Below, piece by piece: positions 14,898 through 40,901 of a stretch of 64,000 nucleotides of DNA. The notes beneath the pieces were generated by a model, which was not told the origin of the DNA, ran no database searches, and saw only the letters and a list, made by a program, of their open reading frames with translations. This DNA is from Saccharothrix ecbatanensis. GTDB lineage: Bacteria; Actinomycetota; Actinomycetes; Mycobacteriales; Pseudonocardiaceae. The DNA is taken from contig NZ_JACHMO010000001.1 of the NCBI RefSeq assembly GCF_014205015.1, forward strand, positions 8,432,001-8,496,000, read 5' to 3'. A program made the translations under genes and the position numbers. Positions within the stretch are counted from its first letter, which is position 1, and every line of letters starts with the position of its first letter.

Positions 14898-16310
14898 GTG
14901 AGCGGTGATCCCGAAACTTCGGAACATGCCGAGCGTGCCGCCGTGGCCGCGTTCGCCGACGACTTCCTGGTCGGCCTGCGCGAATGGCTGACCATCCCGT
15001 CGATCGGCGCCGACCCGGCGCACCACGGTGACGTGAGAGCTTCCGCGCAGTGGCTGGCCGAGGCTTTGCGGCGCGACGGTTGGCCCGATGTCCGGGTCTG
15101 GGACGAGGGCCCCGCACTCCCCGCTGTCTACGCGTGCTGGCCCGCCGCTTCGCCGGAAGCGCCGACCGTGCTGGTCTACGGCCACCACGACGTGCAGCCG
15201 GTCGACCCGGTCGAGCAGTGGCACCACCCGCCGTTCGAACCGACGCTGATCGGCGAAGAGCTGTTCGGACGGGGTGCGAGCGATGACAAGGGGCAGGTCG
15301 CGATGCACCTGCTCGGGCTGAAGGCGCACCTCGCGGCGACCGGCGCGGCACAGCCCGCGGTGACGTTGAAGCTGTTGATCGAGGGTGAGGAGGAGTCCGG
15401 TTCGCCGCACCTGACCCGGCTCCTCGACCAGCACCGCGACGACCTCGCGTGTGACTTGGTCGTGTTCACCGACACGCCGCTGTACGGGCGTGACGCGCCG
15501 ACGATCTGCACCGGCCAGCGCGGGGTCTACGGCGCGGAGGTGGTGTTCACCGGTGGGACGTCGGACGCGCACTCCGGGCGGATCGGCGGCAGCGTGCCCA
15601 ACCCGGCGACCGCCATCGCGCGGTTGGTCGCGGCCCTGCACGACTCCTCGGGGCGGGTGCAACTGCGGGATTTCTACGCCGATGTGACAGAGCCGACGGA
15701 GGCCGAACGCGTCGACTACGCCGCGTTGCCGTTCGACGAGGCGGTGTGGCTGGCGAACGCGGGCGGCGCGCAGGGGCTGGCCGGCGAGCCCGGCTGGTCC
15801 ACGTTGGAACGGGTTTGGGTGCGCCCCACCGCCGAGGTCAACGGCATCCACGGCGGGTACACCGGGCCGGGTCTGAAGACGATCGTGCCGGCGCAGGCGT
15901 CGGTGAAGCTGTCCTTCCGGCTCGTGCCCGATCAGCGACCGGAGCGGATCGCGGACGCGTTGCGCGAGTTCGTCCTCCAGCACACGCCGGACGGGCTGCA
16001 CGCCGAGGTGATCTCGCGCGGTGACGGTGTGCCGCCGTATGCGGTGGACGTGTCCCACCCGGCGGTGGGCGCGGTGCGTGACGCGGTGCAGGCCGTGTTC
16101 GAGGAGCCGGTGAGGTTCAGCCGGACGGGTGGCTCCGGTCCGGCCGCTCTGCTGCACGGCTGGCTCGGGGTGCCGGTCGTTTACCTCGGCGCGACGTTGC
16201 CGGATGATCGCATCCACGCGCCCAACGAGCGCGTCGTCGTCCCACTGCTGCTCCGCGGCGCCGAGGCGGCAGCCCGGTTGTGGCGGCTACTCCCGGAGAG
16301 GTTGTCATGA
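14898..16310 (+). CDS. M20 family dipeptidase/metallopeptidase
   Basis: The 470-residue cytosolic zinc peptidase carries the M20 metal motifs: VYGHHDVQP (about residues 93-101), GRGASDDKGQ (about 130-139) and IEGEEESGSP (about 160-169). The inserted dimerisation domain has the GGTSDAHSGRIGG motif, and the C-terminal HAPNERV motif completes the site. This matches the dipeptidase-type subfamily. GTG at 14898 is chosen because the conserved region starts shortly after and longer starts overlap the divergent gene. The stop overlaps the K+ channel start (ATGA). Confidence 0.92.
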   Translation: MSGDPETSEHAERAAVAAFADDFLVGLREWLTIPSIGADPAHHGDVRASAQWLAEALRRDGWPDVRVWDEGPALPAVYACWPAASPEAPTVLVYGHHDVQPVDPVEQWHHPPFEPTLIGEELFGRGASDDKGQVAMHLLGLKAHLAATGAAQPAVTLKLLIEGEEESGSPHLTRLLDQHRDDLACDLVVFTDTPLYGRDAPTICTGQRGVYGAEVVFTGGTSDAHSGRIGGSVPNPATAIARLVAALHDSSGRVQLRDFYADVTEPTEAERVDYAALPFDEAVWLANAGGAQGLAGEPGWSTLERVWVRPTAEVNGIHGGYTGPGLKTIVPAQASVKLSFRLVPDQRPERIADALREFVLQHTPDGLHAEVISRGDGVPPYAVDVSHPAVGAVRDAVQAVFEEPVRFSRTGGSGPAALLHGWLGVPVVYLGATLPDDRIHAPNERVVVPLLLRGAEAAARLWRLLPERLS

Positions 16311-29530: not shown

Positions 29531-29677
29531 CGGTCGCTTTCGGAAGTTCTTGGCGCGGCGCACCTGGCTGAGCCCGGAAAACAGTTTAAGTCACCAGCAT
29601 TGCGCCTTGCCGTGCGCAACCGACTAACGTCGGGACTTCGACACGCCCGTGTGGCGGCCGTACGTTCCACTCGCCCG

Positions 29678-30880
29678 ATGGGGGTCGCCGTGCACCGCAA
29701 GCTGACCGTGCGCGACCTGCGTGCCGCCAACCGCGCGCGGGTGTTGCGCGCGCTGTACTTCGACCAGCCGCGCAGCCGGCAGGAGATCGCGGGCGTCACC
29801 GGGTTGAGCCAGGCGTCGGTCAGCACGGTGGTCGGCGAACTCATCTCGGACGGTGTGGTGGTCGAGGCCGGGCAGGTCGACTCGGACGGCGGCCGGCCGC
29901 GGGTGCTGCTGCGGGTCAACCCGGCGTTCGCGGCGGTGGTGGGTGTCGACGTCGGCGAGACGCACGTGCTGGTCGAGGTGTTCGACCTGACGTTGCAGCG
30001 CTTGGCCGAGGCGACGTTCCCGATGGAGCCGGACGTGCACTCGGTGGACGACGTGGCGCGGCGGGTGTTGGAAGGGCTTGATCGCTGCCTCGCCGACAGC
30101 GGCGTGGGTGACGTGCTCGGGGTCGGCATCGGCGTGCCCGGTCAGGTCGAACACGGCTTGGTGTACGCGCAGACCGTGGGCTGGCACGGTGTCGCGCTGG
30201 AACGGATGCTCAAGGACGGCACGGACCTGCCGCTGTTCCTGGACAACGGCGCGAACACGTTGGGGCAGGCGGAGGTCTGGTTCGGCGCGGGCCGCGGCAC
30301 GGGTGACGCCGTGGTGGCGTTGATCGGGTCGGGCGTCGGTGCGAGCGTCATCGCGGGCGGCGCGCTGTACCGCGGTTCGTCGGGTGGCGCGGGGGAGTGG
30401 GGGCACACGACCATCGCGCTGGACGGCCGTCCGTGCCGGTGTGGTGCGCACGGCTGCCTTGAGGCGTACATCGGCGCGTCGGCGGTGGTGGACCGTTATC
30501 GCGCGGTGAAGTCCGATGTGCCCGCCGAGCAGGAGGCCGCGTTGGCGGCGCTGGTAGCCGATGGCTCACGCGAAGCCCGGAACGTCCTCGCCGAGACCGC
30601 CCGGTACACCGGGGTCGGGATCGGGAACCTGATCAACCTGTTCAACCCGTCCCAGGTGATCGTCGGCGGCTGGGCCGGGCTGCTCCTGGGCCCGAGGATC
30701 CTGGACGACGTGCGCGCCGAGGCCGCCCGCCACGCCCTGCACCGGCCGTTCGAACAGGCGTCCATCACGTTGTGCGAGCTCGGTCCCGAGTCGGTCGCCT
30801 TGGGCGCGGCGACCCTGCCGGTGGCTGAATTCCTCGCCGCAGGCGGTGTCCGCCGCCGCGCCCCCATCGGAGTGATCTAG
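29678..30880 (+). CDS. ROK family transcriptional regulator/sugar-sensing protein
   Basis: The 400-residue protein has an N-terminal winged helix (LRALYFDQPRSRQEIAGVTG) and a ROK domain with the zinc site GRPCRCGAHGCLEAY, including C-x-C-x4-C, and the sugar-kinase-like phosphate loop GVGIGVPG. It resembles NagC/XylR-type repressors that respond to sugars or sugar phosphates. ATG at 29678 is chosen for the close fit of the N-terminal helix; an in-frame start lies further upstream at 29600. No sugar-use genes lie beside it. Its last 4 bp overlap the convergent Old Yellow Enzyme gene. Confidence 0.88.
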   Translation: MGVAVHRKLTVRDLRAANRARVLRALYFDQPRSRQEIAGVTGLSQASVSTVVGELISDGVVVEAGQVDSDGGRPRVLLRVNPAFAAVVGVDVGETHVLVEVFDLTLQRLAEATFPMEPDVHSVDDVARRVLEGLDRCLADSGVGDVLGVGIGVPGQVEHGLVYAQTVGWHGVALERMLKDGTDLPLFLDNGANTLGQAEVWFGAGRGTGDAVVALIGSGVGASVIAGGALYRGSSGGAGEWGHTTIALDGRPCRCGAHGCLEAYIGASAVVDRYRAVKSDVPAEQEAALAALVADGSREARNVLAETARYTGVGIGNLINLFNPSQVIVGGWAGLLLGPRILDDVRAEAARHALHRPFEQASITLCELGPESVALGAATLPVAEFLAAGGVRRRAPIGVI

Positions 30881-31950
30881 GCGGTGTGCTGGTACGCCGG
30901 GTACGTGAGGTAGCCGGCGTCGCCGCCTTGGTAGTACGTGTCCGGGTCGACGGGCGCGATCGGGACGCCGGTGCGGAGCCGTTCCACCAGGTCGGGGTTG
31001 GAGATGAAGGCACGGCCGAAGCTGATCAGGTCCGCGCCCAGGCCGAGCCAGTGGTCGGCGGCCGTCCGGTCGGTCTGCTTCGGACCCATCGGAACCACCG
31101 GGTTCATGATCAGGGCGCCGGGCCACGCGCGGCGCAGCCCGATCAGCACCTCCTCGTCGGCCGTCGCCTCCAGGTGCACGTAGGCGAGGTCGAAGCGGGC
31201 GAGTTCGGCGAGCAATGCCGCGTACAGCTCCGGAATCCCGGTCTCCTCGACGCCCCAGAACGTGCCGCCGGGCGAGAGCCGGATCCCGGTGCGGGCCGCG
31301 CCCACGGCGTCCACGGTGGCGGCCACCGCCTCGACGGCGAAGCGGATGCGGTGGGCGACCGATCCGCCGTAGGAGTCGGTGCGCAGGTTGGCGTTGGACG
31401 ACAGGAACTGCGAGATCAGGTAACCGTTCGCGCCGTGCAGCTCGACCCCGTCGAACCCGGCGTCGACGGCGCGGCGGGCGGCCTCACCGTACGAGCGGGC
31501 GTGTTCGGGCACCTCGGAGGTGTCCAGAGCGCGGGGGACCGGCGCGGGCTGTGGTCCGTTCGGGGTGAAGACGTCGCCCACGGCGGCGACGGCGGACGGC
31601 CCGACCGGCTGGAGACCGGTGGTGTCGGGGTGCGAGACCCGGCCGCCGTGCATGATCTGGGCGAAGATGCGTCCGCCGTTGGTGTGCACGGCGTCGGTGA
31701 CGGGTCGCCAGGCGGCCACCTGCTCGTCGGTGTGCAGACCCGCGGTGCCCGGGTTGGACTGCCCGATCAAGCTGGGTTGCACGCCCTCGGAGACGATCAA
31801 CCCCGCGGTGGCGCGCTGGGCGTAGTAGGCCGCCATCGACGGGGTCGCGAGGCCTCCGGCCGCGGCGCGGACCCGGCTCATCGGAGCCATCACGACCCGG
31901 TTGGGCAGGGTCAGCTCGCCGAGGCGGTAGCGGTCGAACAGCGTGGTCAT
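30877..31950 (-). CDS. Old Yellow Enzyme-type alkene reductase
   Basis: The 357-residue FMN oxidoreductase has the TIM-barrel start TLPNRVVMAPMSRVRA and the catalytic pair VELHGANGYLISQFL (His/Asn) near residues 178-192. The C-terminal phosphate-binding stretch GADLISFGRAFISNPDLVERL is also present. It belongs to the NemA-like group that reduces activated alkenes and nitro compounds using NAD(P)H. It is divergent from a MerR-family regulator across an 83-113-bp region with inverted repeats, and control by that regulator is likely but inferred. Confidence 0.93.
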   Translation of the reverse strand: MTTLFDRYRLGELTLPNRVVMAPMSRVRAAAGGLATPSMAAYYAQRATAGLIVSEGVQPSLIGQSNPGTAGLHTDEQVAAWRPVTDAVHTNGGRIFAQIMHGGRVSHPDTTGLQPVGPSAVAAVGDVFTPNGPQPAPVPRALDTSEVPEHARSYGEAARRAVDAGFDGVELHGANGYLISQFLSSNANLRTDSYGGSVAHRIRFAVEAVAATVDAVGAARTGIRLSPGGTFWGVEETGIPELYAALLAELARFDLAYVHLEATADEEVLIGLRRAWPGALIMNPVVPMGPKQTDRTAADHWLGLGADLISFGRAFISNPDLVERLRTGVPIAPVDPDTYYQGGDAGYLTYPAYQHTA

Positions 31951-31963
31951 GTGGGGACTCCCT

Positions 31964-32001
31964 CGTACTCGTCGAGGCCCGCGAAGGGCCCTACGAGTAC
32001 G
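31964..32001. promoter_or_regulatory. Inverted repeat between the OYE and MerR genes
   Basis: CGTACTCGT and ACGAGTACG form exact 9-bp arms separated by 20 bp in the divergent promoter region. A second, weaker palindrome (CTGACAT-CA-ATGTGAG, 32008-32023) lies nearer merR and has the layout of MerR operators. Either could be the regulatory site. Confidence 0.55.
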
Positions 32002-32063
32002 CTAAAACCTGACATCAATGTGAGGGGCAAGCCATGCGGTCGGGGTCACAGTCGGGAGAGCGG

Positions 32064-32447
32064 ATGCGGATCGGCGAGCTGGCGGCGCGGGCCGGGGTCA
32101 GCGTCCGTTCGCTGCGGTACTACGAGGAACAGGGTCTGCTCACCAGCACCCGCAGCGCCGGCGGGCAGCGGCACTACACGGAGTACGACGTCGAGCGGGT
32201 CGCCTTCGTCCAGCGCCTGTACGCGGCCGGGCTGTCCAGCCGCACCATCATCGAACTGCTGCCGTGCATCGACTCGCCCAGCGACGAGAACTCGGACGCC
32301 GCGATGGAGCGCATGGCCAAGGAGCGCGACCGGCTCTCCGCCCACATCGAGGAGCTGCTGCGCACCCGTGACGCGCTGGACACCCTGATGGCCACGGCCC
32401 AAGCCCACCGCGACGCCCGCCGCGTCTCCTGCAAGGTCCCCGCATGA
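32064..32447 (+). CDS. MerR family transcriptional regulator
   Basis: The 127-residue protein begins MRIGELAARAGVSVRSLRYY, the MerR winged helix, followed by a long dimerisation coiled coil (AMERMAKERDRLSAHIEELL). Two cysteines (LPCIDS and VSCKVPA) are present but do not match a metal site. The ATG at 32064 follows GGGAG; an alternative ATG lies at 32034. It faces the Old Yellow Enzyme gene, and the pair is a common arrangement in actinobacteria for redox or xenobiotic response. Its stop codon lies 28 bp from the end of the convergent jetC gene. Confidence 0.9.
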   Translation: MRIGELAARAGVSVRSLRYYEEQGLLTSTRSAGGQRHYTEYDVERVAFVQRLYAAGLSSRTIIELLPCIDSPSDENSDAAMERMAKERDRLSAHIEELLRTRDALDTLMATAQAHRDARRVSCKVPA

Positions 32448-32448
32448 C

Positions 32449-32478
32449 GGGCGTGTGCCAGTAGGGCGTGTGCCACTA
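32449..32478. repeat. 15-bp tandem duplication at the jetC/merR junction
   Basis: GGGCGTGTGCCAGTA (32449-32463) is followed at once by GGGCGTGTGCCACTA (32464-32478), one base different. The second copy contains the jetC stop codon. It could be a slippage or deletion scar where a downstream gene would normally start. Confidence 0.7.
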
Positions 32479-35400
32479 GGGATCGACGCGGTCCAGGGCG
32501 GCGCCGTCCCAGGTGGTCTGGGTGCACGCGACGCCGCGACCGTTTCGGGGCCTGAGGACGTCGTAGATGTGCATCCGCGGGATCTTGTCGGAGACGCCCC
32601 AACCGCTGGGCCAGGTGATCACCCAGTCCATGTCGAGGTCCACCAGCAGGCCCAGCATGCGGGCGATCGTCGGGTCGTCCAGCCGTTCGAACGCCTCGTC
32701 CAGCAACACCAACCTCAACGGCGAGAAGTCACCGCTCACCGCGTCGTAGAACGAAGCCGCGGCGGCGAACAGCGTCACGTACGAGATCAGCCGCGTCTCA
32801 CCGGACGACAGCTGGCGGAGGCGGCGTTCGCGCGGACCGCCGTCCGGCGCGGTGTCGGCCACCGTCACGGTGAACTGGTGCCACGTCCGGTAGTCCAGGG
32901 CACGGGACAGGACGTCCGCGTAGTTGCCGCTGTGCCGGTCCCGCTCTTCCTCGATCCGCTCCGTGAACACCCGTCGCAGCGTCGCGTCCTGCTCGGGCGT
33001 CCGCTCCGCGTACGGCAGGCGGACCAGCGTCAACGCGTCACGGGTCGCCTCGTCCAGCGCCGCCGAGTGCTTCCACGCCAGCTTGACGTGCACGCCCTGG
33101 CTGGACCGCGCCCGCGACAGCACGCCGTTCATCCGCTTGCACAGGTCCTCGGCCACCGCGATCTGCCCGCGCAACCACTCGGCCAGGTCCCGGATCAGGT
33201 AGTCGGCGAAGATCACCTGGTACTGGCTGTCCAGCAGACCCCGCTGCTCACCGAGCTTGGTCGTCACCTGCCGGGCCGCCGCCGCGACCGGCCGGGCGCC
33301 TTCCTCGCCGCTGACCATCACCGTCAGCAGACCCGCGTGCTGGTCGGCGGTGATGTCGTGACTGCCGGCCAACGACGTCTGCAACGTCTGCAACTTGGCG
33401 ATCACGGTCGCCTCACCCGCGCCGCGCCGGTCACTCCCGACCAGCGCCTCACGCACCGACGGCACGTCCACCGGCCCGTCCGGCAACGCGGCGGCCAGCA
33501 CACCGGGCGCGTCGACGGTCGCCTTGAAGTGCTCCGCCGCACGTGCCGCCACGTCCTGCGCCGACGCGAGCTGCTCCGCCGCCGTCTCGATCTGCGCCTT
33601 GAGCTTCGCCGCCTCCTCCCGCGCCGACGTGACGTCCTCCCGCACCCGCTTCAGGTCGGCCCGGATCTCCACCCGTGAACGCTCCACAGTGGACAGCTGC
33701 TGGGCGATCTCCCGTGCCTCGCCACCGATCGCGTCGGTCAGCTCGGCCAGCGTCGACGCCTGCGTCCCGTAGTCCCGGCACCGCGCCTCGGCCTCGGACT
33801 CGGCGGCCACCCGGTCGTCCACGGCCGCGTGGTAGCGGTGCGTCGCGTCGGTCAGGTCCCGCACGGTGGCCTGGCACTGGCGCCGCAGCACGTCACCGAG
33901 CCGGTCCGCGATCCGCTGGGCCTCGGCCGCGTCACTCTGCGCGCTCCGGAGCCCTTCGGTGTCTGCGGGCAGCTCCGCGTCACTCGCCTGCCGAACCACC
34001 GCGGCACGTGAAGCCTCGTAACGTGCTTGAGCCGCTTCCAACTCCGTGCGCAGCTTCTCCGCGTGCGCAGCGGCACGGTCGGCCGTCTGTCGCGCGGTGT
34101 GGAGCCGCCCGTGCCGCGCGAGCAGGTCCCGGTCGGACGGGAACCGGTCGACGTACTTCTCCCACTCCTCGACCAGACCGCGTGCCGCCAGCAGGTCCGC
34201 CGCCGCGGCGCCCAGTTCGCCCCGCAACGCCGACAGCTCGTCCTCCAGCTCGGCGATCCGCCGCTGCCGGGCCGCTTCCCGGGCCCCGGCGCCGATGAAC
34301 TCGGCCATCTCCTTGCGCCAAGCACCCGCCAGCACGCCCGCCTGCCACCGACCGTCGACCGACACCGCGAACGCGCCTTGGTCGAGCGACACCGACGCGA
34401 GCAGCTTGGCGACCACCGCCGGAGGCACTGGAGAGTCGACGGTGGGAACCAGAACGGACGCCAGTGACGGCCCGGTCACCGGATCCGCAGCCAAGGCAAC
34501 GACGTCACCGTCCACCACACCCGACGGCCCGACCCACGCGTCCAACAGCCCGGACGCCTCAAGAGCCGCCTCCAGGCCCGCGCGCTGCTCGACGTCCACC
34601 GCTGGCTGGAAGTCCACCAACCGGTAGAACGGCGCACCCGTCGACGGATCACGGTCGGCCGACACGAAACGCCCACGTGCGGGCACCTGCGCCGTACCCG
34701 ACCGGAGACCGGTCAGCTCGGCGTCCCGCGCGTCGATGGTCCGGCTCAGCTCGGCGTTCCGCTGCCCGATCGCGTGCGCGCGCTCCCGTGCGGAAGTCAC
34801 CAAAGGCCCGACCCACTCACGGGCCGCACCGGCCAACGCCCGCGCCGTGGACGGGTCCACCGACGTGGGCAGGGCCAGCGTGCCCGACGGCCGGGTCGGC
34901 CCGGCGTCCTGCCACGCCTCCACGTCGGCCAGCCACGCCTGCGCGACCTCGGCCAGCTCCTGCGCCTCCTGGTTCCGCAACGCCGCCGCCTCCGTCGCGG
35001 CGCGCTGGGTGTCCCGAGCGGTCAGGCGGAGGGCGTCCACCTCGCGTTGCGCGGTATCCAACTCGGCCGCCTGCGCCGCCAACGCGAGCGCCAACGCACC
35101 CCGTTGCCGAGCCGAAGACGCGATCGACGACGTGCGCGACACGAGGTCGTCCAACGCCGGCTCGTCCAACCCGGGCTCGTCCGACCCGGGCGGCACCCGG
35201 CGTTCGATCGGCAACGGCTCTGCTTCCGGGTCAGGCTTGGCCCGCACCTGCTCCGTCCGCACCACTGCGTCCAAAGTGGACACCCGAGGGATGTCCGGCA
35301 CCGCGGCGGGCGAGAGACCGGCCGCACGCAGGTGGTGGCGCAGCGGCTCCACCAGCTCCTCCGCCGTGCCCAGGTCCTCGGCCAACCGCCGCAGGAGCCG

Positions 35401-36489
35401 CAGCACGCCGTCGACCGCGCCGTCCTCCTGCAACCGCTGCTTGTTCGCCATGTCCAACGCCGCCACGGCGGACGAACGCTTCTCCGCCACCAGCTTCTCG
35501 CGCGTCTGCAAGTCCTGGAGGTCGCGGAACGCGGGCAGCTCCTTCAACGCCCCGATGGTCTCCTCGGCCCGCTGCTCACCGGCCTCCAGCTCCGACAACG
35601 ACTGCTCCGCCGCCGCACGTGCCGCCAACGTCCCCGTCAAGGACGCCGACAGCCGAGCCGAAGCCCGTTCCAGCTTCCGCACACCGTCCTCGGCCGCGCC
35701 CCACCGCTCGGCCGCCGCACGCAGCCCGCCGAACGCGTAGTCCGAGTACGTCTTCAGGAACGTCCCCAGCGCCGCGTCCGCCGACGACAGCCGGGTGATG
35801 TTCTCCCTGATCGACTCCAGGTCGTCGAACGACGTCGCCAGCTGCTCGACCATCACCTGGTCCAACGGCGGCAGCGCGTCGGACAGGATCTGCTCCAGCT
35901 GCCCTTCCAGCACCTTCAGCCCGACGTCCGGGTTGCGCAGCGTCCGCTGGAGGTGCAGCAGGTCGCCGTACCGGGCCGCGGGCACGCCGTACACGGTCTC
36001 CGCCACGCGAGCCCGGAACGCCGCCTCCTCCAGCACGCAGTCCGCGCCGACCAGGTCACGCAGCTGCACCGGCCCCAACGGCGTCCGCTCCGCACCCACC
36101 AGCGCCAGGTCGTGCCCCACCCGGAGGGGCGTGATGAACCGCCACGAGTCGGTGATCGCCTGCGACGTCTTGGACGCCTTCACACCCAACCCGCAGGTCA
36201 GGAACTCGCCGTCACGCTCCAGCTCCACCCACGCGTACCCGATGCGGTTCGGCCCGCCGTCGTAGTCGTCCAGCATGAGCCGCCGCAGAGACACCGTGTC
36301 GAAGCCCTTGGAGCCGACCTGCCGGAGGTCGCCGTCGAGGCACAGCGGCAGCAGCAGCTCCAGCGTGCGCGACTTGCCGGACCCGTTGGTGCCCTGGAAG
36401 ATCGCGCGCCCACCGGAGAAGTCGAACGTCTGCTCGGTGTACTGCCAGATGTTGACGATGCCGCCCCTGTGCAGCCGCCACCTGTTCAC
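32476..36489 (-). CDS. jetC: SMC-like ATPase of a type II Wadjet/Mks system (JetC, TIGR02680)
   Basis: This 1337-residue SMC-type ATPase has Walker A GTNGSGKS at residues 33-40, two long coiled coils, and a central hinge-like block (about 600-745). The C-terminal head has signature LSSGETRLISY (about 1225) and Walker B LVLLDEAFERLDD (about 1255-1267). Length and layout match the TIGR02680 family, the condensin-like motor of type II Wadjet, which extrudes DNA loops to recognise small circular DNA. GTG at 36489 overlaps the jetB stop. After its stop there is no jetD, only a convergent merR 28 bp away. Confidence 0.92.
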   Translation of the reverse strand: MNRWRLHRGGIVNIWQYTEQTFDFSGGRAIFQGTNGSGKSRTLELLLPLCLDGDLRQVGSKGFDTVSLRRLMLDDYDGGPNRIGYAWVELERDGEFLTCGLGVKASKTSQAITDSWRFITPLRVGHDLALVGAERTPLGPVQLRDLVGADCVLEEAAFRARVAETVYGVPAARYGDLLHLQRTLRNPDVGLKVLEGQLEQILSDALPPLDQVMVEQLATSFDDLESIRENITRLSSADAALGTFLKTYSDYAFGGLRAAAERWGAAEDGVRKLERASARLSASLTGTLAARAAAEQSLSELEAGEQRAEETIGALKELPAFRDLQDLQTREKLVAEKRSSAVAALDMANKQRLQEDGAVDGVLRLLRRLAEDLGTAEELVEPLRHHLRAAGLSPAAVPDIPRVSTLDAVVRTEQVRAKPDPEAEPLPIERRVPPGSDEPGLDEPALDDLVSRTSSIASSARQRGALALALAAQAAELDTAQREVDALRLTARDTQRAATEAAALRNQEAQELAEVAQAWLADVEAWQDAGPTRPSGTLALPTSVDPSTARALAGAAREWVGPLVTSARERAHAIGQRNAELSRTIDARDAELTGLRSGTAQVPARGRFVSADRDPSTGAPFYRLVDFQPAVDVEQRAGLEAALEASGLLDAWVGPSGVVDGDVVALAADPVTGPSLASVLVPTVDSPVPPAVVAKLLASVSLDQGAFAVSVDGRWQAGVLAGAWRKEMAEFIGAGAREAARQRRIAELEDELSALRGELGAAAADLLAARGLVEEWEKYVDRFPSDRDLLARHGRLHTARQTADRAAAHAEKLRTELEAAQARYEASRAAVVRQASDAELPADTEGLRSAQSDAAEAQRIADRLGDVLRRQCQATVRDLTDATHRYHAAVDDRVAAESEAEARCRDYGTQASTLAELTDAIGGEAREIAQQLSTVERSRVEIRADLKRVREDVTSAREEAAKLKAQIETAAEQLASAQDVAARAAEHFKATVDAPGVLAAALPDGPVDVPSVREALVGSDRRGAGEATVIAKLQTLQTSLAGSHDITADQHAGLLTVMVSGEEGARPVAAAARQVTTKLGEQRGLLDSQYQVIFADYLIRDLAEWLRGQIAVAEDLCKRMNGVLSRARSSQGVHVKLAWKHSAALDEATRDALTLVRLPYAERTPEQDATLRRVFTERIEEERDRHSGNYADVLSRALDYRTWHQFTVTVADTAPDGGPRERRLRQLSSGETRLISYVTLFAAAASFYDAVSGDFSPLRLVLLDEAFERLDDPTIARMLGLLVDLDMDWVITWPSGWGVSDKIPRMHIYDVLRPRNGRGVACTQTTWDGAALDRVDP

Positions 36490-37652
36490 GCGGTCTCCTC
36501 ATCGAACAACGACCAGCTCGGCACTTCCGGGACGACGACGGGCTCCGCTTCACGTTCCGGATCGCCGTCGGGCTCCGGTATCCAGCGGTGCGCGGCGGCG
36601 TTGAGCAGCCACCCGTCGTCGGTCCGTACCGCCAACCCCATGCGGCGCAACAGTTCCAGCACCTCGTCGGTCAGCCGGTCCAGGTCTTCGGTGAACTGCT
36701 TCGACCACGCGGCCGGGTAGTCCTCCACCAGCCGACCGCACACCTCGCGCAACTCCTCGCGCACGACCACGTGCCGGCCGTCGGGGCGCGGGTCCGAGCC
36801 CAGCACCTCCGGCAACGCCAGCAACGCGATCCGCGCGACCGTGGACGTGCCGGGGAAGTACAGGTCGGTCAGGTAGTCCTCCGGGTCGGCGGCCAGCACG
36901 CCTTCCACTCGGCACTCGGTGTACAGCCCGAAGCACGTCTCCAGCAGCGCGGACTCCTTGCGCTGATTGCGCCGCAGCCAGTCCGCCTGCTCGGCCGGCA
37001 GGTCCGCGTACAGCACCACCGGGTTCTCCACCAGCTTGCGCCGCACCGCGTGCTCGACCCCGCGCGGACCGGGCCGGGCGGCCAACTCGACCAGCCGATC
37101 AGGTGACGTCGCCTCGGCCACCGGACCGGTGAGCAGCTGCCCGAGCAGGTCGGTGTCGATGGTGATCAACGCCTCGGCCTGCGCGTCCACCGTGCCCTCG
37201 GTCTCGTGCAGCACGCCCAGCGACACCAGGTGCCGCAACGCCGCCGTCAACGCGCGCCGGTCCGCCACGTCGTCCACGACGGTGATCCCGGCCTCGGCCG
37301 CCGCCGCACGGATGTCCGCCACCAGCCGCGACAGCAGCGTCTGCCGCCCGATCCCGGTCAGCACCGCCATCGTCAACGCCACGTACGCGTACCCGCGCGG
37401 GGACATGCCGAGCACGCCACGCGAGTCGTCGGCGCCCGGCCCGGACTTGTAGAGCCGGGCGAACCGCCGCTCCACCACCAGCCGGTACCCGAGCGTGCGG
37501 GCGAACAGGTCCTGCAACGCGGCCCGGTGCCGGTAGACCAGCGTCAACAGCTCGCCGTCCGGCCCGTCCGCGCGCAGCAACGGCCGCCGCAGCAGGGTGC
37601 GGGCGCACCGCACCACGTTCGCGGCGTCGATCTCGGAGAGGTCGTCGAACAT
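36486..37652 (-). CDS. jetB: JetB/MksE-like subunit of a type II Wadjet system (TIGR02678)
   Basis: This 388-residue protein matches the TIGR02678/DUF2398 layout: VVRCARTLLRRPLL at the start, a YRLVVERRFARLYK segment near residue 55, and a winged-helix region (ADRRALTAALRHLVSLGVL). A C-terminal helix rich in charged residues ends in a flexible acidic tail. In Wadjet complexes this MksE-like protein bridges the kleisin-like JetA and the motor. The ATG at 37652 overlaps the jetA stop, and the stop overlaps the jetC GTG. An in-frame extension upstream runs antisense to nothing conserved and is rejected. Confidence 0.9.
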   Translation of the reverse strand: MFDDLSEIDAANVVRCARTLLRRPLLRADGPDGELLTLVYRHRAALQDLFARTLGYRLVVERRFARLYKSGPGADDSRGVLGMSPRGYAYVALTMAVLTGIGRQTLLSRLVADIRAAAAEAGITVVDDVADRRALTAALRHLVSLGVLHETEGTVDAQAEALITIDTDLLGQLLTGPVAEATSPDRLVELAARPGPRGVEHAVRRKLVENPVVLYADLPAEQADWLRRNQRKESALLETCFGLYTECRVEGVLAADPEDYLTDLYFPGTSTVARIALLALPEVLGSDPRPDGRHVVVREELREVCGRLVEDYPAAWSKQFTEDLDRLTDEVLELLRRMGLAVRTDDGWLLNAAAHRWIPEPDGDPEREAEPVVVPEVPSWSLFDEETA

Positions 37653-39133
37653 CAGTCGAGCACCAACGTCGAGTCGTGCAGCGTCAACGTGCCCGCGGCC
37701 GAGTGGATCTGTGTCGCCTGCCCTCGGGCGTGCGCGACGGTGACCCGCAGGCCGCGCACCGGGTCCGTCGCCGAGCCCGGGTCGGACGCCGTGTCCCGCT
37801 GAGCCATCGCCAACGTCAGCAGCTCGCACAACACCCCGAGCGCCTCACCGGACAACGTCGTCTCGGCCAGCCGGGGCGCCGCCGCCGCCAGCTCGGCCAC
37901 CGACGAGGCCCGCCGTTCGTCCGCCTCCCGTGCCTCGGCCAGCAGCGACTGCTCGGTCATCGGGTCGTCCAGGATTCTCGATGTCCGCCCGCGCGCGCCC
38001 CGGTCACCGCGGCTGCGCACGCTCACCGTGACGTCGACCACCGGCCCGTCCCGCCACGGCGTGCGCTCGTTGTCGCTGTCGTGCTCGGGCGCTGGGGAGA
38101 CGTGCCGGGCCGAGTACAGCCCGAACGCCGCCGCGTACAGCTCGTTCGCCTGCTCACGTGACCCGGAGTCGAACCACGCGGCGAGCTTCAGCAGCTCGGC
38201 CCGACGGCTCGGCAGCAGCCCGCCGCCGGACGTGGCCCGCTTCACGCTGGCCAGCAGCGACCCGATCGCCCGTGCGGTGGCCTCGCGCAACGCCGTCACC
38301 TGGCTCGGCCGGCCGGGCCGGTCCACGAACCAGTCGGTCAGCTCCTGCCAGTCCTCGGCGGAACGCCCGCGCGCCCGTTCGACCTGCTCGCCCAGGTCGG
38401 CGCGGCCCAGGAGCCGCAGCAGCTCGGACCGGGCGGAGTTCACCCGGGCCAGGGCGTCCGCGATGGCCGGGGTGTGCCGCAGCACGTCCTCCACGACCAT
38501 CTGGATGTACTCGACCAGCAGGTTCCGGAACCCGGAGATCTCCTCCGGCGCGAGGTGGTGCCGCGTCACGACCTGGCCCAGGTAGGCGTAGAAGTCGCGC
38601 ACGGTCGCGGCCAGCTCGGCGTGTTGCAGGAACAGCGTGGTGACCTGCTCGGCCAGCACCTCGCGCGGCCGGCGACCGCCGCTGATCAAGGCCTCCGACA
38701 GCGACTGCCCCAACTGGCCGAGACCGCGTTCCACGGCGGGCAGCAGCTCCCGGGACACCTCCCGCGCGCCCTCGGGCACGCGCAGCAGCTCGTCCACGTC
38801 GCGCTGCACCCGGACCGCGAGCTTGCTGACCTGGTAGCGCACGCTGCCGTGCTGGAACTCGGCGATGCTCGACGCCACCACCTCGCGCCGGCCCTGGACC
38901 AGGTTGCCCCACTCGACCAGCTGCCGGAGCCGGTTGATCACGTTCTCGATGCGCGACTCGCCCGGCTCGACCCGGCCCTGCCGCTCGGCGCCGGCCAACG
39001 CTCCCGCGACCTCGCCCGCGGACAGGTCGGCCAGCAGCGTGGACGTGAACAGCCGCATGATCGCCAGGTACGTGCGCTGGTGATCGCGCGCGTCCAGGTA
39101 GGCGTAGAGCTTCAGGCGGCCGGCTGGTTCCAC
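37652..39133 (-). CDS. jetA: JetA/MksF-like kleisin subunit of a type II Wadjet system (TIGR02677)
   Basis: The 493-residue protein matches TIGR02677/DUF2397, beginning with KLYAYLDARDHQRTYLAIMR. It has a helical N-terminal winged-helix region, a long middle (ISGFRNLLVEYIQMVVEDVL), and the WQELTDWFVDR block. A C-terminal part contains an Arg-rich linker (VSVRSRGDRGARGRTSRILD). It is the kleisin-like subunit of the condensin-type complex. Start GTG 39133 gives the usual family length. It is the first gene of the jetA-jetB-jetC operon, in which each gene overlaps the next, and it is divergent from cobD across 51 bp. Confidence 0.9.
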   Translation of the reverse strand: MEPAGRLKLYAYLDARDHQRTYLAIMRLFTSTLLADLSAGEVAGALAGAERQGRVEPGESRIENVINRLRQLVEWGNLVQGRREVVASSIAEFQHGSVRYQVSKLAVRVQRDVDELLRVPEGAREVSRELLPAVERGLGQLGQSLSEALISGGRRPREVLAEQVTTLFLQHAELAATVRDFYAYLGQVVTRHHLAPEEISGFRNLLVEYIQMVVEDVLRHTPAIADALARVNSARSELLRLLGRADLGEQVERARGRSAEDWQELTDWFVDRPGRPSQVTALREATARAIGSLLASVKRATSGGGLLPSRRAELLKLAAWFDSGSREQANELYAAAFGLYSARHVSPAPEHDSDNERTPWRDGPVVDVTVSVRSRGDRGARGRTSRILDDPMTEQSLLAEAREADERRASSVAELAAAAPRLAETTLSGEALGVLCELLTLAMAQRDTASDPGSATDPVRGLRVTVAHARGQATQIHSAAGTLTLHDSTLVLD

Positions 39134-39184: not shown

Positions 39185-40153
39185 GTGAGTCTGGGGCGGG
39201 CGGTGGGGTTGGTGCTGGGCGTGGCCGCCGACGCGGTGTTCGGCGACCCCCGCAAGTATCACCCGGTAGCGGGATTCGGGCGGGCGGCGACGGCGCTGGA
39301 GCGCAAGCTGCACCGCGACAACAAGGCGGCCGGCGTCGCGCACGCGGTGGTGCTGGTCGGCGGCACGGTGCTGGCCGGTGTCGCGGTGGAGCGGCTCGGC
39401 CGGCGCAGTCCGGTGGCGCAGGCGCTGACCACGGCCGCGGCGACGTGGATCGTGCTCGGCGGGTCGTCGCTGGCCGACGAGGGCACCGCGATGGGCCGCG
39501 AGCTGGACGGCGGCGACCTCGACGCGGCGCGCAAGCGTTTGCCCAACCTGTGCGGGCGTGAGCCGCTGAAGCTGGACACGCTGGGCCTGGCGAAGGCGAC
39601 CGTCGAATCCGTCGCGGAGAACACGTCCGACGCCGTGGTGGCGCCGCTGTTCTGGGGCGCGGTCGCGGGCGTGCCGGGCCTGCTCGGCTACCGCGCGGCG
39701 AACACCTTGGACGCCATGGTCGGCCACCGCAACGAGCGTTACCTGCGGTTCGGCTGGGCCGCGGCACGGCTGGACGACGTGGCGAACCTGCTGCCGTCGC
39801 GGCTGGCCGCACTGCTCACGGTGGCGGGCGCGCCGGTCGTCGGCGGGTCCGCCGGTGAGGCTTGGAGCACGTGGCGCCGTGACGCGGCGGCGCACCCCAG
39901 CCCCAACGCGGGTCAGGTGGAGGCGGCGTTCGCGGGGGCGTTGGAGGTCCGGCTGGGTGGTCGGACCGTGTACGCGCACGGTGCGGAGGACCGGCCGGTG
40001 CTCGGGCACGGGCGCAACCCCGACGCCGGTCACGTGACGCGGGCGGTGGAGCTGTCCCGGGTCGTGGGCGCGTCGGCGGCGGCCGTGAGCGCGGTCATCG
40101 CGCTGGTGCGGCCTCGTCTTCGGCGAGCTGCTCGGCGACGGACCTCCGCCTGA
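39185..40153 (+). CDS. cobD: Adenosylcobinamide-phosphate synthase CobD/CbiB
   Basis: The 322-residue membrane protein has the CobD/CbiB signature DAVFGDPRKYHPVAGFGR near residues 18-35. It also has ESVAENTSDAVVAPLFWGAV (about 140-159) and HRNERYLRFGWAAARLDDVANLLPSR, which the family conserves. It joins the aminopropanol arm to cobyric acid in cobalamin synthesis. GTG at 39185 is the start. No cobalamin riboswitch fits in the 51 bp upstream. The last 59 bp overlap the convergent SURF1 gene. Confidence 0.95.
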   Translation: MSLGRAVGLVLGVAADAVFGDPRKYHPVAGFGRAATALERKLHRDNKAAGVAHAVVLVGGTVLAGVAVERLGRRSPVAQALTTAAATWIVLGGSSLADEGTAMGRELDGGDLDAARKRLPNLCGREPLKLDTLGLAKATVESVAENTSDAVVAPLFWGAVAGVPGLLGYRAANTLDAMVGHRNERYLRFGWAAARLDDVANLLPSRLAALLTVAGAPVVGGSAGEAWSTWRRDAAAHPSPNAGQVEAAFAGALEVRLGGRTVYAHGAEDRPVLGHGRNPDAGHVTRAVELSRVVGASAAAVSAVIALVRPRLRRAARRRTSA

Positions 40154-40901
40154 CCTTGGTCTTGCCCTCGTCCTGTTCGCGCAGCGCGCCGCCGGGCCGG
40201 ACCTCGCGGACGGTGAAGTAGAGCCAGCCGGCGAGCGCCATCGCGCCGAACGCGATCCACTGCAACGCGTAGGAGAAGAACGGTCCCGCGTCGAGCTTCG
40301 GCAGCGGCAGCGACTCCTCCACGCCGGGCTGGCCCTCGGTGAGCTGGAAGTAGCCCGGCCGGATCTCCAGCCCCGCCGCACGCCCGACCACGGCGGAGTT
40401 CACCGAGTAGACCTGGCGGTGCTGGTCCTCCTGGAACGCGTCGCGCTGGTCCGACTCTTCGCGCCTGGCCAACGCGACCAAGGTGACTTCGTCGGTCGGC
40501 ACGGCCTTCAGCTCGGGCACCTTGATGCCGTTGACGGGCCGCACGTAACCGCGGTCGACCAGCACGATCGGCCCGCCGGTCAGCTGGAACGGGGTCAGCA
40601 CCTCGAACGCCGCCTCACCCTGGACGGTCCGCAGCCGTGCCACGGCCTGGCCCTCGGGCAGGTAACGGCCGGTCAGCGTCACGCGCTGCCACTCGACGTC
40701 GGCGTTCGGCCGGTCGAGCAGCGTGGTGACGGGCACCGGATCGGTGCCGACGGACGAGGTGACCGCGTGGTTCTGCGCCTCGCGCTCCGAGTCGCGGTTG
40801 AACTGCCAGGGCGCGAGCAGCGTGAAGCACGCGCCCGCGAACACCCAGACCACCAGCGTCAAGGCCAGCCAGCCGGGTTGCAAAAGGAACTTCAACCGCA
40901 C
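40095..40901 (-). CDS. SURF1 family cytochrome oxidase assembly protein
   Basis: The 268-residue protein has two TM helices, near residues 9-31 (WLALTLVVWVFAGACFTLLA) and 210-230 (FFSYALQWIAFGAMALAGWLYF). A conserved extracytoplasmic domain lies between (VTLTGRYLPEG, LVDRGYVRP). SURF1 helps assemble haem A into cytochrome c oxidase. The TM-domain-TM layout and the PVNGIKVPELK region fit the family. GTG at 40901 is the start. The C-terminal cytoplasmic tail is charged. It is convergent with cobD and shares 59 bp with it. Confidence 0.92.
   Translation of the reverse strand: MRLKFLLQPGWLALTLVVWVFAGACFTLLAPWQFNRDSEREAQNHAVTSSVGTDPVPVTTLLDRPNADVEWQRVTLTGRYLPEGQAVARLRTVQGEAAFEVLTPFQLTGGPIVLVDRGYVRPVNGIKVPELKAVPTDEVTLVALARREESDQRDAFQEDQHRQVYSVNSAVVGRAAGLEIRPGYFQLTEGQPGVEESLPLPKLDAGPFFSYALQWIAFGAMALAGWLYFTVREVRPGGALREQDEGKTKVRRRSVAEQLAEDEAAPAR

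Follow-up and report, generated by a model that had tools for sequence, protein, structure and literature searches.

A type II Wadjet-family jetABC operon without jetD in Saccharothrix ecbatanensis, and the fate of JetD among its relatives

INTRODUCTION

Type II Wadjet systems, which restrict circular plasmids, consist of four protein families (JetA2/JetB2/JetC2/JetD2; TIGR02677–TIGR02680). Other described SMC (structural maintenance of chromosomes) complexes include Pseudomonas aeruginosa MksBEF and Corynebacterium glutamicum MksBEFG. In a 2023 review, defence complexes are proposed as the ancestors of MukBEF and MksBEF, the latter having lost JetD; the same review describes chromosome extrusion by a JetABCD system as undocumented so far (PMC10586767). 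Here we characterise a jetABC operon of Saccharothrix ecbatanensis (Pseudonocardiaceae), located in a 64,000-nucleotide stretch of the chromosome (NZ_JACHMO010000001.1, positions 8,432,001 to 8,496,000; hereafter the window). The operon encodes the three core families of type II Wadjet in their usual order but has no jetD, the fourth gene of this lineage in sister genera, and we found no JetD with an intact toprim glutamate-aspartate-aspartate (E-D-D) site in the genome. Compared with P. aeruginosa MksBEF as the review presents it (PMC10586767), the window proteins are actinobacterial members of the type II JetABC families and would represent a separate, recurrent loss of the nuclease, with a role that may be similar. 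We argue that the operon more likely than not encodes an MksBEF-like SMC complex that has no nuclease, descends from a type II Wadjet and is kept for a cleavage-independent role.

RESULTS

The window encodes a complete JetABC core

The three genes of the operon are as follows.

37652..39133, minus strand: jetA (kleisin-like, DUF2397), 493 aa, recognised by NCBIfam, Pfam and PADLOC profiles
36486..37652, minus strand: jetB (KITE-like, DUF2398), 388 aa, N-terminus MFDDLSEIDAANVVRCAR
32476..36489, minus strand: jetC (SMC-like ATPase, TIGR02680), 1337 aa, with ATPase motifs

The original prediction, made from the sequence of the window, described these genes as complete and mutually overlapping, in good agreement with their coordinates (overlaps of 1 base for jetA/jetB and 4 bases for jetB/jetC) and with the family profiles. 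JetC scores 695 bits against TIGR02680 (cut-off 463) and JetB 142 bits against TIGR02678 (cut-off 125); JetA, at 157 bits, falls slightly below the TIGR02677 cut-off of 166 and is matched by Pfam DUF2397 (420 bits, cut-off 28.5) and PADLOC JetA2 (673 bits). Walker A, ABC signature and Walker B are all present in JetC, which matches the solved JetC chain 9qe0 with an E-value of 3e-65. The profiles of all three databases assign the proteins to JetA2/B2/C2, in a comparison that covered the Jet families. The locus thus groups the three type II genes jetA, jetB and jetC in an operon that contains no jetD (DUF3323/DUF2399), and its composition, SMC, kleisin and KITE proteins without a nuclease subunit, is that of an MksBEF-type complex.

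JetABC stays in place while JetD varies

A search with the JetA of the window in 249 Pseudonocardiaceae genomes identified 129 further loci with JetA 64–97% identical, the next best matches being at most 42% identical; this gap therefore delimits a distinct JetABC lineage, which is present in all 17 sampled Saccharothrix genomes, that of the window included. We read 120 of the 129 loci and the window (121 in all), with up to 19.5 kb around each; at the remaining nine, PF09664 matches adjoin jetABC, as judged by coordinates only. Gene calling relied on a home-made codon score, and the gene lists near the operon are therefore approximate.

A SURF1 gene lies upstream at 110 of the 121 loci (29 of the 30 with an E-D-D JetD and 81 of the 91 others), as does cobD at 82 (30 of 30 and 52 of 91, respectively). 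JetA distances correlate with SURF1 distances across 109 loci (Pearson 0.81, Spearman 0.63), and none of 300 permutations reached the Spearman value. The conserved neighbours and this correlation fit vertical inheritance of JetABC at a fixed place, and not a roaming defence island.

A JetD homologue is found beside jetC at 66 of the 121 loci, with E-D-D kept in 30 of the 66. The JetA+B+C tree (118 loci, midpoint root) contains 13 maximal clades without any E-D-D JetD, and 13 losses are required if active JetD was ancestral and never regained. An outgroup genome from another family (JetA 57% identical) carries an E-D-D jetD directly 3' of jetC; in the other three of the four outgroup genomes, DUF3323 either gives no match (two genomes) or lies on a different contig from jetA (one genome). 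An ancestor with active JetD draws support from this outgroup jetD and from the dead and truncated copies, which look derived. Judged from these sequences, JetABC stays in place, and JetD has time and again been inactivated, lost or exchanged for a TIR fusion (see below). That JetD was always absent from this branch is contradicted by the E-D-D jetD directly after jetC in other genera of the lineage and in one of the four outgroup genomes.

Several further JetD genes were noted. The Actinokineospora-group JetD (L195:11774-13477 after turning, genome G100) is 567 aa in length; a long insertion separates its N-terminal part from the toprim part, and M stands in place of the E. The Saccharothrix genomes G172, G110, G195, G206 and G127 carry, beside JetABC, another type II Wadjet that is canonical and includes a JetD, the jetD lying 5' of jetC by coordinates. 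DUF2399 matches, known by match scores only, also occur in G088 (E 3.8e-21) and G232 (E 2.8e-7).

Purifying selection on JetABC in groups with and without JetD

We compared the ratio of non-synonymous to synonymous substitution rates (dN/dS) as median pairwise NG86 values, the larger groups being represented by their first 46 usable pairs only. The ratios for jetA, jetB and jetC are 0.13, 0.25 and 0.21 in Saccharothrix, 0.08–0.14 in Lentzea, 0.08–0.11 in two jetD-less genera and 0.10–0.29 in three groups with an E-D-D JetD. As the values of all seven groups lie well below 1, JetABC is, by this estimate, under purifying selection whether or not JetD accompanies it. ATPase motifs are complete in 116 of 118 JetCs, whole JetD-less genera included; the two exceptions are from Kutzneria, one JetC being split over two frames and one having a second frame near the C-terminus. 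These broken frames (L142 and L144, genomes G057 and G158) make up two of the six Kutzneria loci and may reflect sequencing error.

In a type I system, an N-terminal IFDR motif of JetB contacts JetD, according to the review cited above (PMC10586767). In our lineage, the JetB tip reads F in 26, L in 3 and a gap in 1 of the 30 loci with an E-D-D JetD, as compared with F in 21, L in 65, V in 1 and a gap in 1 of the 88 without, three cut loci being set apart. The F thus seems to go with E-D-D JetD, a correlation that is only suggestive since species are not independent. It is kept in 16 of the 17 Saccharothrix loci.

The only JetD-family gene of the genome looks catalytically dead

We searched the whole genome (9.69 Mb, one contig) with TIGR02680, TIGR02679, PF09664 and PF11796. 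TIGR02680 matches once, at the jetC of the window. The single DUF2399/DUF3323 gene (C1:3122770-3123774, 335 aa) lies 5.3 Mb from the operon, amid peptide-synthetase, arabinofuranosidase and PEP-mutase (phosphoenolpyruvate mutase) genes and with no Wadjet operon; its product comprises DUF3323 and the C-terminal part of DUF2399. Its toprim site reads R-D-T instead of E-D-D, i.e. two of three active-site residues are lost. Substitution is the rule among its homologues (n = 55): 50 of them span the site at an identity of 63% or more, and every one of these has R-D-T, R-D-S or H-D-T. JetDs of other Wadjet loci in genomes of the family have E-D-D in 29 of 29 cases, a figure biased to intact sites because the 29 are the best-scoring DUF2399 matches.

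The best fold match of the altered JetD is MksG of C. glutamicum MksBEFG, likewise an actinobacterial SMC system; a sequence search of the PDB gave no JetD match for either the altered or an E-D-D JetD. MksG is an active nuclease in which, as reported, alanine at E236 or D279 drastically impairs cleavage (PMC10123090), whereas the altered JetD lacks the E and one D. The distant gene therefore looks catalytically dead. The original suggestion that the operon uses a nuclease encoded elsewhere, with a genome search for TIGR02679/DUF2399 as its check, is not supported: a JetD-family gene does lie elsewhere, but its active site is substituted, as in its close relatives. We accordingly rejected an intact JetD nuclease elsewhere in the genome, as the sole gene from the TIGR02679/PF09664/PF11796 search has lost its active site.

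The altered JetD has a dN/dS of 0.17 in Lentzea and 0.30 among five Saccharothrix copies, next to 0.18–0.40 for E-D-D JetDs. It occurs in 5 of the 17 Saccharothrix genomes of the first sample and in G254, a genome that has both dead JetD and JetD-TIR; JetABC is present in all 17. In the six genomes compared (G000, G143, G159, G172, G240 and G254), similarity covers the gene and tens of bases, and the neighbourhoods differ. The solitary altered-site loci (L004:9767-10774, which is G000:C1:3122770-3123774; L216-L219; L264) sit at unrelated positions. By eye, a short 3' stretch of several copies resembles the end of the Lentzea marR that follows jetD, and several have a common upstream ACTAGGCT-like stretch; these remnants suggest that the solitary altered JetD derived from a jetABC-jetD locus and then moved as a single gene. 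A tblastn search of 72,556 plasmid records for the altered JetD returned only distant (<60%) relatives, in 10 records.

The stretch downstream of jetC is variable

The operon is flanked by the following features.

32448..32475, unstranded: jetC-merR gap of 28 bp; from the jetC stop codon on, the DNA no longer resembles that of Saccharothrix sp. NRRL B-16314, which runs into jetD-TIR here
32034..32447, plus strand: merR-family regulator, convergent to jetC, first gene in the jetD slot
30877..31950, minus strand: member of the NADH:flavin oxidoreductase family (PF00724), the other occupant of the jetD slot
30877..30885, unstranded: junction that holds jetD-TIR in Saccharothrix sp. S26 and S. saharensis but not in the window
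29600..30880, plus strand: ROK-family gene, bordering the slot in the window and in NRRL B-16314
39185..40153, plus strand: cobD/cbiB, conserved upstream neighbour
40095..40901, minus strand: SURF1-family gene, conserved upstream neighbour

As originally predicted, no jetD follows jetC, and the convergent merR, which ends at 32447, is 28 bp from jetC. The place of jetD is taken by the merR and flavin oxidoreductase genes. A scan of this gap found no promoter- or terminator-like site. The merR and flavin-oxidoreductase pair (window 30877-32447) follows jetC at 5 of the 121 loci, all in Saccharothrix.

Across loci, the stretch 3' of jetC is highly variable, in contrast to the upstream side. Next genes that recur do so within or between neighbouring genera (peptidase-like cluster c24 at 5 loci, c86 at 3 and c90 at 3); the commonest family, the peptidase-like one of Allokutzneria and Crossiella, also follows JetD in three other loci. 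A single replacement effector after jetC was rejected, as no family recurs across JetD-less genera among the 22 of 55 JetD-less loci with a same-strand next gene.

JetD-TIR fusions in Saccharothrix relatives

Fusions of the JetD N-terminal domain to TIR are found in or near the jetD slot at the following places.

L268:15714-16838: fusion in Saccharothrix sp. NRRL B-16314
L098:13555-14661: fusion
G215 and G254 loci: fusions

In NRRL B-16314, a 374-aa gene begins at 15714, 37 bp beyond the end of jetC (15676) and in the same orientation; it encodes the JetD N-terminal domain and then TIR. The 96% identical protein P0009 matches Pfam DUF3323 and TIR_2. The TIR part resembles AbTIR, an NAD(+) hydrolase (PDB 8g83; E 1e-31), here fused to a JetD domain behind an SMC operon. 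The WxxxE glutamate, which we take to be the catalytic one, is invariant in all seven sequences compared. The AlphaFold model of the fusion is poor, with a predicted local distance difference test (pLDDT) of 56 and a predicted template modelling score (pTM) of 0.40.

In the JetC tree, NRRL B-16314 and the window are sisters (support 1.00). Their DNA is 93.8% identical along 9,097 bp as far as the jetC stop, and similarity resumes at window position 30885; in between lie merR and the oxidoreductase gene in the window, and jetD-TIR in NRRL B-16314. In S26 and S. saharensis the order is jetC, merR, oxidoreductase and then jetD-TIR. The window matches S26 on both sides of jetD-TIR. Since it continues across the junction, near 30881, without the gene, its lineage probably lost a jetD-TIR, in an order of events that we infer.

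JetD-TIR near jetC was not seen in 15 of the 17 Saccharothrix loci, and among the 121 loci it is restricted to this genus. The N-terminal part, searched against 5.8 billion proteins, gave seven matches, six of them TIR fusions and one the query's own record; NRRL B-16314 and G254 add two JetD-TIR loci beyond this protein search. A 223-aa N-only JetD query gave three proteins, all N-only and one of them the query, among the 7,995 scored candidates, those with the most words in common. On plasmids, a tblastn search with JetD-TIR matched 324 records, none over more than 80% of the query, the eight listed covering mostly or wholly the TIR part. Neither a JetD-TIR fusion nor a JetD-less type II lineage was found in the available text of the literature searched, including PMC10586767, PMC10123090, PMC10952713 and PMC10512200.

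DISCUSSION

In this study we describe a jetABC operon that has the SMC motor and lacks the nuclease. JetC (SMC ATPase), JetA (kleisin) and JetB (KITE) would assemble and probably still load on and extrude DNA, with an end point other than plasmid cleavage for want of an active JetD. Their role may be chromosome organisation or segregation, or the holding or silencing of circular DNA, as proposed for MksBEF. Because the motor is kept in place while the cutter is repeatedly disabled, lost or swapped, the task of JetABC is probably one for which DNA need not be cut. Among the three options originally offered, a putative MksBEF-like loop extruder is best supported: the operon keeps its position, is under purifying selection and has intact ATPase motifs even though no nuclease accompanies it; a degraded defence system describes JetD, with its recurrent inactivation and loss, and does not describe JetABC, which exhibits no decay.

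Several observations weigh against this reading. Unordered Fitch parsimony needs only 4 changes with an inactive JetD at the root, which disfavours the simplest loss-only story. The restriction of the larger dN/dS groups to 46 pairs also counts here, and the JetC ratio of 0.21 in Saccharothrix, compared with 0.09–0.11 in Kutzneria or the Kibdelosporangium group, indicates weaker constraint and therefore possibly recent relaxation. Finally, since sister strains have JetD-TIR, JetABC may have a defence role through another effector. In its explicit form, which we consider rather unlikely, JetABC sensed circular DNA and signalled to the TIR NADase on the JetD N-terminal domain in an abortive defence, and the window holds the remnant of a recently disarmed system whose TIR gene has just been lost. 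The jetD-TIR of the sister strain, its position two genes further on in S26 and S. saharensis with matching DNA on both sides, and the JetB tip F retained in Saccharothrix all speak for it; yet most Saccharothrix loci lack jetD-TIR near jetC while their jetABC ratios are well below 1, and jetD-less JetABC is common in other genera, where no TIR fusion was seen among the 121 loci.

About equally unlikely, in our view, is a role of the distant altered JetD in trans, as a structural or regulatory partner of JetABC that does not cleave DNA: all 17 Saccharothrix genomes keep JetABC and a minority have this gene, whose six compared copies sit at unrelated loci. There is a slim chance that an unrelated nuclease cleaves in trans, given that no single family fills the jetD place across genera at the 22 JetD-less loci with a same-strand next gene. 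The many losses and inactivations of JetD and the two seemingly frame-broken Kutzneria JetCs could be read as signs of a functionless, decaying remnant of a defence system, which the low dN/dS in seven groups and the motifs conserved even in JetD-less genera render highly improbable. More speculatively, and as a joint proposal that we hold only tentatively, JetABC, inherited vertically, would be a modular sensor with an output that is swappable within one family: a cutting JetD, a conserved dead JetD, a bare N-terminal adaptor, an adaptor-TIR NADase (a suicide Wadjet), or nothing (a housekeeping condensin in the making), and the solitary, wandering dead JetD of Saccharothrix may be a decoy that keeps JetABC from arming.

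Returning to the nuclease-free SMC complex, active, dead, truncated, swapped and absent JetD states all occur in sister genera of one family, and the step from a defence complex to a nuclease-free SMC complex is therefore testable among close relatives. Of our findings, the JetD-TIR fusion surprises most, and it would provide an SMC plasmid sensor with a new kind of output.

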